Below are positions 34,475 to 46,172 of a stretch of 64,000 nucleotides of DNA, in pieces. The notes under the pieces are model-generated. The model did no database searches and was not told the origin of the DNA. It saw only the letters and a list, made by a program, of their open reading frames with translations. The position numbers and the translations under genes were made by a program. Within the stretch, counting starts at the first letter, position 1; each line of letters begins with the position of its first letter. Source of the stretch: Collinsella sp. BA40 (GTDB lineage Bacteria; Actinomycetota; Coriobacteriia; Coriobacteriales; Coriobacteriaceae); the NCBI RefSeq assembly GCF_008014645.1, contig NZ_VOWY01000010.1, positions 62,001 to 126,000 of the forward strand, given 5' to 3'.

Positions 34475-34494
34475 CAACGAACAGCTGTTCGTTG
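34475..34494. promoter_or_regulatory. LexA (SOS) box of recA
   Basis: A perfect 20-base palindrome centred on GAACAGCTGTTC, which matches the Gram-positive/actinobacterial LexA site GAAC-N4-GTTC. It lies 36-55 bases before the recA ATG. Similar boxes are found in front of lexA in this window. Confidence 0.88.
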
Positions 34495-44005: not shown

Positions 44006-44644
44006 CTACAGCCTGCGCATCAATGCTACGACTTTTCCCAGGATGGTGGGATTCGTTGCATAGATGGGCTCCATCGCATCATTCTCGGGTTGGAGGCGTA
44101 CGCGGCCGCATTCCTTGTAAAACGTTTTAACGGTAGCGCTCCCGTCGATCATTGCAACGACGATTTCGCCATTCATGGCGTTCGGTTGCTCGCGAACCAC
44201 GATGTAGTCACCATTATAAATGCCTGCGTTGATCATCGAATCGCCGTGGACCTCAAGAATAAACGAACAAGAGTCCGTCGCGATTTCCGTGGGCAGCGTG
44301 AACGTGTCCTCTACATTCTGTTCAGCCAGAATGGGAATACCAGCCGCCACGCGACCGACGAGGGGCAGTGAGACCGTGCCACGAGAGGGGTTTTCTTCGA
44401 CATGAGCAAGCTTGGCCGAAGACCCGTCCTCGTTAAACAATTCGAGCGCGCGCGGCTTCGTGGCATCACGCTTGATCAGCCCGTGTTCCTCAAGCGCATT
44501 GAGATGGGCGTGAACGGTGGAAGGCGATGAAAGGCCAACGGCCGCGGCCATCTCTCGTACGCTGGGAGGATACCCCTTCTCCTGCTGATAGCTGCGGATA
44601 AAGTCGTAGATCTGCTGCTGGCGCTTCGTGATCTTGCGTGCCAT
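44006..44644 (-). CDS. lexA: SOS repressor LexA
   Basis: Represses SOS genes and cleaves itself when RecA filaments form. 212 residues: N-terminal winged helix (ITKRQQQIYDFIRSYQQEKG, SVREMAAAVGLSSPSTVHAHL), the cleavage site Ala-Gly in GRVAAGIP near 95, and the S24 peptidase dyad: Ser in HGDSMINAGI near 135 and Lys in SATVKTFYKE near 172. The frame is open further upstream, but ATG 44644 with GGAGG just before it gives the canonical start MARKITKRQ. Three SOS boxes lie between it and the divergent LysM gene. Confidence 0.97.
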   Translation of the reverse strand: MARKITKRQQQIYDFIRSYQQEKGYPPSVREMAAAVGLSSPSTVHAHLNALEEHGLIKRDATKPRALELFNEDGSSAKLAHVEENPSRGTVSLPLVGRVAAGIPILAEQNVEDTFTLPTEIATDSCSFILEVHGDSMINAGIYNGDYIVVREQPNAMNGEIVVAMIDGSATVKTFYKECGRVRLQPENDAMEPIYATNPTILGKVVALMRRL

Positions 44645-44661
44645 GGCCTCCTCCGTTCCCC

Positions 44662-44673
44662 AAACAAATGTTC
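44662..44673. promoter_or_regulatory. Imperfect SOS box near the lexA start
   Basis: AAAC-AAAT-GTTC, one base off the GAAC-N4-GTTC pattern, 18 bases from the lexA start codon. Only the right half-site is perfect, so binding may be weak or dependent on the two boxes further right. Confidence 0.45.
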
Positions 44674-44683
44674 GATTCCCTAT

Positions 44684-44710
44684 TGACCGGAACAACTGTT
44701 CGAAGATAAT
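44684..44710 (+). promoter_or_regulatory. Candidate promoter for the LysM gene
   Basis: TTGACC at 44684-44689 and GATAAT at 44705-44710. The spacer is short (15 bases) and contains a perfect SOS box, so LexA would block polymerase directly. Confidence 0.4.
44690..44701. promoter_or_regulatory. SOS box 2 between lexA and the LysM gene
   Basis: GAAC-AACT-GTTC, a full match to the LexA half-sites. Placed to serve both divergent genes. Confidence 0.85.
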
Positions 44711-44717
44711 GGTATAC

Positions 44718-44729
44718 GAACACTCGTTC
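44718..44729. promoter_or_regulatory. SOS box 3 between lexA and the LysM gene
   Basis: GAAC-ACTC-GTTC, preceded by C and followed by C, a full match to the actinobacterial LexA pattern. It lies 70 bases before the LysM gene start and 28 bases from box 2 (start to start). Confidence 0.85.
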
Positions 44730-44798
44730 CGTGTCCAGACTTCATGTCCGCTTGACGCGCTATAAGTATTCATGTACGAATTCACGAGAGGAGCAAAG

Positions 44799-45209
44799 AT
44801 GAATGGTTGGAATGCAGTGGATGGCAGCTTGGCTATGGCCCTCGAGGCCACGCGCCCGTATGATGGGTCGCGTCGTTTCGTTGTAGTACGGGGCGGAACC
44901 GTCGCCGCGCCTTCGAAGGCAACTCCGGTTCGCTATGCATACATTGTGTTCGCGCTAGCGCTTTCCCTGCTCCTAGTCGTAGTTGGGCTCAACGCTTATA
45001 AGTCTTATAGCGCATATCGTGCATTAACCCAGGCGCCTCTTGTTTCCATTGACGTGCAACAGGGAGAAACACTTTGGGATATCGCACGAACCCATGGTAT
45101 CGAGGGTGTCCCCGTAACTCAACTCATGGAAGCGATCAAGGAATGGAACAATATGGATGTCGCGCAGCTCGACGTCGGCCAGAAGCTTTTGGTGCCTCAA
45201 GGCGTTTAG
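44799..45209 (+). CDS. LysM-domain membrane protein, probable SOS division inhibitor
   Basis: 136 residues: a soluble N-terminal part of about 45 residues, one membrane segment (about 47-68, YIVFALALSLLLVVVGLNAY), and a C-terminal LysM domain (about 84-134, VQQGETLWDIARTHGI ... VGQKLLVPQG) facing the cell wall. Divergence from lexA with shared SOS boxes and a following nrdR is the layout of Bacillus yneA and of mycobacterial Rv2719c and corynebacterial divS, small proteins that halt division after DNA damage. The role is inferred from that layout; sequence similarity within the LysM part alone would not prove it. ATG 44799 follows GAGGAGC; ATG 44772 is an unlikely longer start. Confidence 0.82.
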   Translation: MNGWNAVDGSLAMALEATRPYDGSRRFVVVRGGTVAAPSKATPVRYAYIVFALALSLLLVVVGLNAYKSYSAYRALTQAPLVSIDVQQGETLWDIARTHGIEGVPVTQLMEAIKEWNNMDVAQLDVGQKLLVPQGV

Positions 45210-45279: not shown

Positions 45280-45723
45280 ATGCGTTGCCCAAAATGCGGT
45301 GCTGCCGATACCAGGGTTATTGATTCCCGCATGCAGGAGGCGGCAAATGCAACAAAACGCCGACGTGAGTGCAAATCGTGCGGCTATCGTTTCACCACCT
45401 TTGAGCGGTGCGAGGATCAGATTGAAGTTGTTAAGAGCAACGGTTCGACGCAGCCATTCGATCGCAACAAGTTGCTCGTTGGTCTAATGCGAGCAACTTC
45501 TAAGCGCGATATAGACCTCCCGCAGCTTAATGCGCTAATCGACGATATTGAAAGCGAGCTTCGCCAAAGCACGCGCACCGCTGTTAGCTCTCATGAAATC
45601 GGCGATATGGTGCTTAAGCGCCTGCAGGTAATTGACAAGGTCGCATATATTCGATTCGCATCGGTTTATCGCGATTTCAAAGATGTCGATGAATTTATTC
45701 AAGAACTCAATAAATTGAGGTGA
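45280..45723 (+). CDS. nrdR: Transcriptional repressor NrdR
   Basis: Represses ribonucleotide reductase genes in response to ATP/dATP. 147 residues: an N-terminal zinc ribbon (CPKCGAADTRVIDSR, then RRRECKSCGYRFTTFER) and an ATP-cone domain (VVKSNGSTQPFDRNKLLVGLMRA). Its position after lexA and the LysM gene is conserved in actinobacteria. It is followed directly by dut, another dNTP-pool gene. Confidence 0.96.
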   Translation: MRCPKCGAADTRVIDSRMQEAANATKRRRECKSCGYRFTTFERCEDQIEVVKSNGSTQPFDRNKLLVGLMRATSKRDIDLPQLNALIDDIESELRQSTRTAVSSHEIGDMVLKRLQVIDKVAYIRFASVYRDFKDVDEFIQELNKLR

Positions 45724-45728
45724 GATTT

Positions 45729-46172
45729 GTGAGTGCCATTACCGTGCCCATCAAGCGTCTTGACCCTGAAGCCGTGATTCCGTCATATGCATATGCGGGT
45801 GATGCAGGGCTCGATCTACGGGCCCTGGAGACCCTCGTTCTCAAACCCTTCGAACGAGTGCTCATCCCAACCGGCCTTGCCATCGCTATACCTGAAGGCT
45901 ATGCCGGGTTTGTTCAGCCACGCTCTGGACTTGCCCTCAAACGCGGGTTGTCGATTGTAAACACCCCTGGACTCATCGACTCCCATTATCGAGGCGAGCT
46001 TAAGATCATCGCTATCAACCTTGATCCCGTGAACGACATTCAAATCGAGAAGGGTGAGCGAATCGCTCAGCTTGTTATCCAGGAGGTTCCTGTCGTAACG
46101 TTGACCGTGGTCGATGAGCTCGATGCAACTGATCGCGGCGCTGGTGGATTCGGTTCAAGCGGAACGTGCTAG
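45729..46172 (+). CDS. dut: Deoxyuridine 5'-triphosphate nucleotidohydrolase (dUTPase)
   Basis: Hydrolyses dUTP to dUMP, keeping uracil out of DNA and feeding thymidylate synthesis. About 147 residues, trimeric class. All five motifs are seen: AGDAGLDLRA, the FVQPRSGLALKRG region, TPGLIDSHYRGELK, ERIAQLVI and the glycine-rich end RGAGGFGSSG. GTG 45729 is chosen because GAGGTGA at 45717-45723 lies five bases upstream; GTG 45720 would overlap the nrdR stop and add three residues. Confidence 0.94.
   Translation: MSAITVPIKRLDPEAVIPSYAYAGDAGLDLRALETLVLKPFERVLIPTGLAIAIPEGYAGFVQPRSGLALKRGLSIVNTPGLIDSHYRGELKIIAINLDPVNDIQIEKGERIAQLVIQEVPVVTLTVVDELDATDRGAGGFGSSGTC

Follow-up and report, generated by a model that had tools for sequence, protein, structure and literature searches.

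The gene at 44799..45209 of the window analysed here (the whole 64,000-nucleotide stretch, whose numbering is used throughout) is quite likely the coriobacterial counterpart of ChiZ/Rv2719c, that is, a DNA-damage-induced membrane protein that delays division under the control of both LexA and PafBC, and by analogy with characterised inhibitors its product probably halts cell division after DNA damage. The evidence at hand comprises the LexA boxes, the promoter geometry and its conservation, a P2-like element that co-occurs with pafBC-like genes, and the domain architecture. In kind this is an ordinary finding, a ChiZ/YneA-type gene beside lexA. What is new is an operator array with 28-bp spacing conserved across an order, the loss of LysM with the cytosolic motif retained, and an apparent PafBC promoter in a class for which the papers listed in a literature survey included no description of LexA/PafBC double control. 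None of the papers listed (on LexA, SOS and PafBC in Coriobacteriales, Collinsella, Eggerthella and Coriobacteriia) dealt with this locus.

Organization of the locus

Three LexA boxes lie between lexA and the divergent LysM gene, with start-to-start distances of 28 and 28 bp and a span of exactly 68 bp. They begin at 44662, 44690 and 44718, which confirms the two perfect boxes and one near-match within 68 bases of the original prediction; the gene order it had read, lexA, a divergent gene for a single-pass LysM protein and nrdR, was upheld by family models (TIGR00498, PF01476, TIGR00244) and by one hydrophobic segment. The features are as follows.

34479..34490: perfect LexA box directly upstream of recA, in the 64-kb window (palindrome 34478-34491, CGAACAGCTGTTCG)
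44006..44644, minus strand: lexA (TIGR00498, 228.6 bits; LexA_DNA_bind and Peptidase_S24)
44662..44673: LexA box 1, lexA-proximal, AAACAAATGTTC, one mismatch
44690..44701: LexA box 2, perfect, GAACAACTGTTC, within the -35/-10 spacer of the LysM promoter P1, a conserved geometry
44718..44729: LexA box 3, perfect, GAACACTCGTTC, directly 3' of the LysM -10 hexamer and within the spacer of the lexA-ward promoter candidate
44683..44710, plus strand: LysM-gene promoter P1, TTGACC - 16 nt - GATAAT, 10/12 matches
44709..44737, minus strand: candidate lexA-ward promoter (weak), TGGACA - 17 nt - TACCAT, 9/12 matches
44744..44766, plus strand: putative PafBC / RecA-NDp promoter element (P2), aTGTC - 12 nt - TATAAG, between box 3 and the LysM gene
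44789..44793, plus strand: Shine-Dalgarno sequence AGGAG, read from the sequence
44799..45209, plus strand: gene for a LysM single-pass membrane protein of 136 aa, candidate SOS division inhibitor, ATG behind AGGAG
44823..44837, plus strand: N-terminal motif GSLAM (order form G[TNS]xA[LVRIM]) of the 44799 LysM protein
44877..44897, plus strand: second N-terminal motif FVVVRGG, by eye on alignments
44934..44990, plus strand: transmembrane (TM) segment, residues about 46-64 (hydropathy 2.55 at residue 46; AF2 helix 44-78)
45054..45197, plus strand: LysM domain, residues 86-133 (PF01476, E=1.3e-10; beta-alpha-alpha-beta model)
45280..45723, plus strand: nrdR, the next gene downstream of the LysM gene (TIGR00244, 180.4 bits)
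45720..46172: dut, overlapping the 3' end of nrdR by 4 bp

The longest open reading frame would place the start of the LysM gene at 44772; this start was rejected because ATG 44799 has a Shine-Dalgarno sequence and matches relatives. In M. tuberculosis, Rv2719c is followed by nrdR (Rv2718c). In the window, nrdR and dut may be co-transcribed with the LysM gene. P1-type sites numbered two in the region, against 0.6 expected. The number of one-mismatch boxes alone was rejected as evidence, with 23 observed against 25.4 expected in the whole window; the box signal lies in clustering and conservation, not in an enrichment of one-mismatch boxes across the window. Perfect boxes occur at 22 sites in the 1.93-Mb genome, two of them here, 28 bp apart. 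This genome falls into group f1/g1; a second g1 genome (G074) shares 97% identity with Collinsella aerofaciens D40t1 across 1.5 kb, which suggests a Collinsella-like host.

Conservation of the LexA operator array

NrdR was searched in 120 genomes of the order, 116 of which were positive and 110 of these read (30 loci and 80 fetched stretches); LexA was searched in 28 of the 120, mostly those with lexA away from nrdR, and 26 were positive. The lexA upstream region was obtained from 107 genomes. In 89 of them a membrane gene diverges from lexA, defined as an ORF no shorter than 20 aa that has a TM segment and a ribosome site; 16 have no such gene, and two (G025 and G081) were truncated and set aside. 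A doubtful 28-aa ORF of G085 was dropped by hand and the genome scored as lacking the gene, the product of G064 was kept despite a ribosome-site score below the limit, and the start in G084 was shifted to an internal ATG. With boxes counted up to 230 bp from lexA, all 89 genomes with the gene had at least two (72 had three, 11 two and six four), as against five of the 16 without it (10 with one box, one with none and five with two; Fisher p=1.8e-11). Counted by genus, the proportions were 47/47 and 4/10 (p=5.8e-6). Because two or more boxes track the presence of the divergent gene, we assign the distal boxes to that gene.

The spacing is also conserved: with one genome for each of the 47 genera that have the gene, 49 of 90 box gaps were exactly 28 bp and 66 were 27-29 bp. 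The core in family f1 reads AAACa..TGTTC ... TTGACaGGAACAACTGTTCGa..ATAAT.ATA.aCGAACA.tCGTTC, so that the spacer of the rightward promoter is filled by box 2 and box 3 follows the -10, and TTGACa-box2-ATAAT is kept in 20 distinct f1 upstream sequences. In most genera the lexA-proximal box has a one-base asymmetry (AAAC..GTTC in 26/47, GAAC..GTTT in 13/47). Box 1 is probably lexA's own operator, since nine of the 16 genomes without the divergent gene keep a single lexA-proximal box of the AAAC..GTTC type; where lexA lies further off, the altered base falls in a TTG that could form the beginning of the lexA -35.

Some observations on LexA elsewhere were made along the way. Genome G119 (f2, g66, one contig, 1.4 Mb) has NrdR and gave no LexA match, possibly a natural loss of lexA. 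Perfect LexA boxes were also seen between a DEAD/DEAH helicase gene and a divergent iron-hydrogenase-like gene (L246 1501-1512; G000 C11:22065) and about 100 bp upstream of a gyrB/parE-like gene (L242 1501-1512; G000 C4:8614).

A PafBC-type element between the boxes and the gene

Many LysM genes of the order share the element TTGTCCG-N10-TATAAC downstream of box 3. The LexA-independent damage promoter of mycobacteria (RecA-NDp) is described as tTGTCRgtg - 8 nt - TannnT (PMC5656591), and the distance from TGTC to TA is 12 nt in both the order element and this consensus. The element in the window, aTGTCCgct-8nt-TATAAG, matches in spacing and departs from the consensus in having A for t, C for R and TATAAG in place of TAnnnT; most class relatives fit the mycobacterial PafBC consensus better. 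A site of the form xTGTC-N12-TA was present between the last box and the start in nine of 15 LysM genera (300 shuffles: mean 0.11, maximum 2), the region being too short for this test in two further LysM genera. It was found in four of 26 genera whose product is tail-anchored and in none of four with a micro-ORF (shuffles: mean at most 0.14, maximum 2), in 20 of 22 LysM loci of the class outgroups (mean 0.81, maximum 6), and in two of 16 LysM loci from the rest of the phylum, one of which is the Mycobacterium-like L230.

A tandem pair of WYL genes resembling pafB and pafC was found in this genome near C12:145.0-146.2 kb. The PDB matches of both proteins are chains of PafBC structures only. One protein matches PafC (7p5x) and PafBC (6sj9); the second matches PafBC (6sj9) as well as the partner chains in 7p5x and 9fnd, which bear the name 'transcriptional regulator-like protein'. 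HTH_PafC remained below its cut-off of 32 bits in this genome (17.7 bits, at most 20.8). Pair status was set by eye among the matches listed for 58 of the 89 genomes, the other 31 being left out. Within these 58, the element was present in 32 of 35 genomes with a pafBC-like pair (the exceptions being G045, G017 and G003) and in none of 23 without, the absence calls for WYL genes being soft (G028 had two WYL matches in one search and one in another). By genus the proportions were 9/12 and 0/17 (p=2e-5), an association confounded by phylogeny in that 22 of the 23 pairless genomes belong to one family (f2) and represent one or few events.

By eye, the upstream region of recA in this genome had no TGTC element, and one-mismatch P2 sites numbered seven genome-wide against four for a backward control, so a large PafBC regulon is not evident. 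A Pfam search with the ORF beside another TGTC element (L250) gave no family. PafBC is known from actinobacteria. Its action is described as activation by ssDNA and sigma adaptation (PMC11804915), and the PafBC motif beside M. tuberculosis lexA is reported to serve, and to point to, rv2719c (PMC8151990), so double control by LexA and PafBC is known in that species. With an element of PafBC type placed downstream of box 3 and ahead of the gene, LexA is probably not the sole damage regulator of the LysM gene, and the start region of this gene seems to carry two separate damage switches. The SOS boxes were originally put forward as the drivers of the gene; the LexA boxes are indeed in its promoter, but they probably account for part of its damage control.

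The LysM protein and its LysM-free relatives

The 44799 protein has a single TM segment followed by a C-terminal LysM. Its best NCBIfam match is the YneA equivalog NF010723, a model with no other match in the genome; as the score of 44.7 bits lies below the curated cut-off of 60, we do not call the protein a YneA and limit the claim to 'works like'. The same model matches 23/23 members of an alignment (A2) drawn from the 49 LysM-type products. In an alignment that does not contain YneA itself, the LysM of the 44799 protein reads G-E-T-L-W, against D-[TS]-L-W in most members; in YneA, the LysM residues needed for glycan binding are D46, T47 and I81. The AF2 model has a low-confidence N-terminus (pLDDT 52-67), one helix at 44-78 and a beta-alpha-alpha-beta LysM from 81 (pLDDT >90), so the LysM is predicted to sit directly on the membrane helix. 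Foldseek ranks solved LysM domains first (best E=2.7e-3, with no match reaching 0.001), and phmmer of the protein against the PDB gave no match at 0.1. The protein diverges fast in f1, where tblastn found it in 22 of 25 other genomes at 26-35% identity, compared with 81-90% for LexA and 77-85% for NrdR. G9, A12, L13 and G32 are nearly invariant in the LysM alignment, close in this respect to the LysM core W93, N117 and G127.

LysM is not a feature shared by the whole coriobacterial gene family, as many relatives are without it: the 89 products comprise 49 of LysM type (f1, f3, f5), 34 tail-anchored proteins and six micro-ORFs (at most 60 aa). Among 84 products, 67-78 residues follow the TM window in 49, 0-5 in 34 and 20 in one. 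Genomes from the section of the order to which Gordonibacter and Slackia belong have a tail-anchored protein or a TM micro-ORF in this place. Such micro-ORFs, of 23-55 aa, occur in f2, f6, f11, f13 and f14; the 23-residue ones (L098 and L110, of the sister f2 genomes G037 and G047) consist of the TM segment only and have a Shine-Dalgarno sequence under LexA boxes at a conserved position about 115 nt from the lexA start, and standard gene callers would probably miss them. Seven of nine class-outgroup loci without LysM likewise have a TM micro-ORF, of 29-41 aa (L204, L209, L211, L213-L216). Of the 34 tail-anchored proteins, 22 were scanned with Pfam and NCBIfam and none gave a match, and AF2 of the tail-anchored form was confident only for the terminal TM helix.

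An N-terminal motif is common to most of the LysM and tail-anchored forms. G[TNS][SALTV]A[LVRIM], a post hoc expression widened by one letter (M) after the 44799 protein was viewed, starts and ends within the 30 N-terminal residues in 42 of 48 distinct LysM proteins (shuffles: mean 0.36, maximum 3) and 27 of 31 distinct tail-anchored proteins (mean 0.15, maximum 2), or by genus in 12/17 LysM, 22/26 tail-anchored and 0/4 micro-ORF genera. With a matrix trained on 20 tail-anchored genera outside f5, 41 of the 48 distinct LysM proteins scored higher than the 99% level of shuffles, and the 44799 protein scored 7.7, which is reached by 0.5% of its shuffles. When 23 LysM proteins were compared with 22 tail-anchored ones by hhalign, only the first 32 residues aligned (P=1.4e-5, probability 80%). 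The second motif commonly takes the form FTVIEGG in LysM proteins of the order and IIEFPG in tail-anchored ones (alignments, by eye). The N-terminal motif is missing from f3, f4, f8, part of f5 and f7, and the micro-ORFs. LysM proteins were found at 38 of 72 outgroup loci; the expression matched none of these 38 and one (L228) passed the matrix, with the longest open frame taken as the N-terminus and the matrix run only where the TM starts after residue 10.

A quickly built tree of LexA (102 rows; 34 of its 98 inner branches are weak) requires at least three changes in the presence of LysM, and LysM is found at 22 of 31 class-outgroup loci; together these make loss of LysM the simpler reading. 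From at least 80 loci, 28 Coriobacteriia-like ones with names were picked by title; they partly repeat other genomes (the product of L303 is that of L161). Of these 28, 23 had a readable lexA: 17 with a LysM product (16 with the TGTC element), four with a tail-anchored one (none with the element) and two with no product found. Named LysM carriers were Collinsella aerofaciens, C. provencensis, an Olsenella MAG and Atopobiaceae MAGs, and the tail-anchored carriers were Candidatus Gordonibacter avicola, Slackia isoflavoniconvertens and two MAGs; no divergent product was found in Adlercreutzia murintestinalis (L331). By eye, many LysM proteins of the class outgroups (L159-L174, L197-L208) have a short post-LysM tail ending in R or K behind small residues (e.g. 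A-S-R), unlike the tails of the order and possibly a C-terminal protease signal.

Proposed model and alternative explanations

We infer the following model for the regulation in vivo, topology, target and division arrest of the 44799 protein. At rest, LexA on boxes 2 and 3 would block P1, box 2 lying between the -35 and the -10 and box 3 just past the -10, and box 1, together with box 3, would repress lexA. After damage, RecA-stimulated cleavage of LexA would release P1; in parallel, ssDNA-activated PafBC would let the housekeeping RNA polymerase use P2 (TGTC-N12-TATAAG) just downstream, so that the brake would be made even without LexA cleavage. The protein would insert with its N-terminus inside and its C-terminus outside, its TM helix probably docking on the septal synthase, which by analogy with YneA would be FtsW, and its LysM domain lying directly above the membrane on nascent glycan, and we favour a role of the N-terminal motif as a cytosolic divisome contact or turnover signal. 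Lineages without LysM have retained boxes for LexA and a TM, and for the most part the N-terminal motif as well, and the brake there would work through the TM and the cytosolic tail. YneA is reported to reach the septum through binding of its TM to FtsW TM7, after which its glycan-binding LysM blocks synthesis, and this LysM is required (PMC13396833); the LysM-free forms may thus act otherwise or not at all. For ChiZ, a review describes LysM as seemingly not necessary for function (PMC3989709), and the LysM-free coriobacterial forms would fit this side and not the YneA requirement. The damage checkpoint protein of the original prediction is supported in part, by its position, by boxes embedded in the divergent promoters and by the YneA model as best NCBIfam match; the account given of it was incomplete or wrong in some details.

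Considering all of this together, we tentatively put forward a joint reading for the Coriobacteriales that may well prove wrong in some part. The SOS brake would be built from a TM helix and a cytosolic peptide for docking or turnover (G-[TNS]-x-A-L, then hhVIEGG or IIEFPG). LysM would be dispensable and would have been lost repeatedly, the extreme being micro-proteins of 23 residues with nothing but the TM, under a LexA array that persisted. Double control by LexA and PafBC would be old, from mycobacteria to Coriobacteriia, and its second arm would have gone together with pafBC in an Eggerthellaceae-like family.

Two alternatives bear on the components of this reading. The P2-like element might be a plain sigma-70 promoter or the site of another regulator, as the order consensus TTGTCCG...TATAAC differs from tTGTCRgtg...TAnnnT at two places and this genome has no clear recA site of PafBC type; we consider this doubtful, though a real contender, in view of the exact spacing, of ATGTCAGA...TAnnnT at the same place in most of the 22 loci of class relatives (20 match xTGTC-N12-TA), and of the way the element follows the pafBC-like genes. 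The LysM-free tail-anchored proteins might likewise be unrelated replacements that share the N-terminal motif by convergence or chance. The motif is short (five residues), its expression was drawn after the sequences were viewed, the hhalign probability is just 80%, and the LysM-free proteins of f4 and f8 do not have it. Nevertheless, a matrix built from LysM-free proteins outside f5 recognises most LysM proteins, both forms have the same gene position and the same operators, and genus g40 of f5 is an intermediate, LysM-free inside a LysM family with the motif kept, which makes unrelated origins unlikely.

The function itself could also be read differently. LysM only points to wall binding and a hydrolase activity has been reported for ChiZ (PMC3989709), so the protein might be an SOS-induced envelope protein that anchors or trims the wall during damage without arresting septation. 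We give this little credence, as position and control match those of characterised division inhibitors, and a wall-binding role hardly accounts for the relatives that have no LysM and yet lie under an operator array of this kind. That the boxes serve only lexA autoregulation, with the LysM gene constitutive from P2 or by read-through, appears very improbable: no box is far from lexA, given the overlap of the divergent promoters, and the lexA-proximal box persists in genomes without the divergent gene, but boxes 2 and 3 lie within the promoter of that gene and two or more boxes track it, with the limit that five of 16 genomes without the gene keep two. A counterpart of ChiZ under LexA and PafBC remains our preferred reading.

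How lexA-linked membrane inhibitors stop septation is a current question (YneA-FtsW, PMC13396833). The presence and absence of LysM within one order, with operators and mostly the motif kept, amounts to a set of domain deletions made by nature, from which the contributions of the TM, the LysM and the cytosolic tail can be told apart. If the proposal is true, LexA/PafBC double control of a division brake extends to common human gut bacteria.

Comparison with known systems

Compared by description, SidA of Caulobacter crescentus resembles the TM micro-ORFs of 23-55 aa in being a very short SOS-induced membrane protein; it is 29 aa long and is not known to be lexA-linked. SosA of Staphylococcus aureus is, like the coriobacterial tail-anchored forms, described as a lexA-divergent SOS membrane protein without LysM (PMC6851548). 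In contrast to these forms, SosA has its TM in the N-terminal half and a functional extracellular C-terminus; because the tail-anchored proteins nearly always have 0-5 residues after the TM window (20 in one), any activity they have must lie in the membrane or the cytosol.

The original prediction had likened the gene to yneA, Rv2719c and divS, the first two of which have LysM. DivS of Corynebacterium glutamicum, also compared by description, is a lexA-linked SOS division suppressor that according to PMC6851548 is without a LysM domain (see also PMC3989709). YneA of Bacillus subtilis shares TM and LysM, SOS control and a place adjoining lexA (PMC13396833, PMC6851548), whereas in the 44799 protein a tail of 43 residues, which includes a conserved motif, precedes the TM helix. 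The 44799 protein also scores below the equivalog cut-off for YneA. ChiZ/Rv2719c of M. tuberculosis is described as lexA-divergent, with a TM and an extracellular LysM (PMC6851548, PMC3989709), and as having a LexA box and a PafBC motif oriented to the gene (PMC8151990). The Mycobacterium-like orthologue L230, the sole one examined, differs in its N-terminus, which is longer and does not contain the GxxAL motif, and the locus described here differs from that of ChiZ/Rv2719c in its three LexA boxes at 28-bp spacing and its order-specific PafBC element (TTGTCCG, TATAAC).
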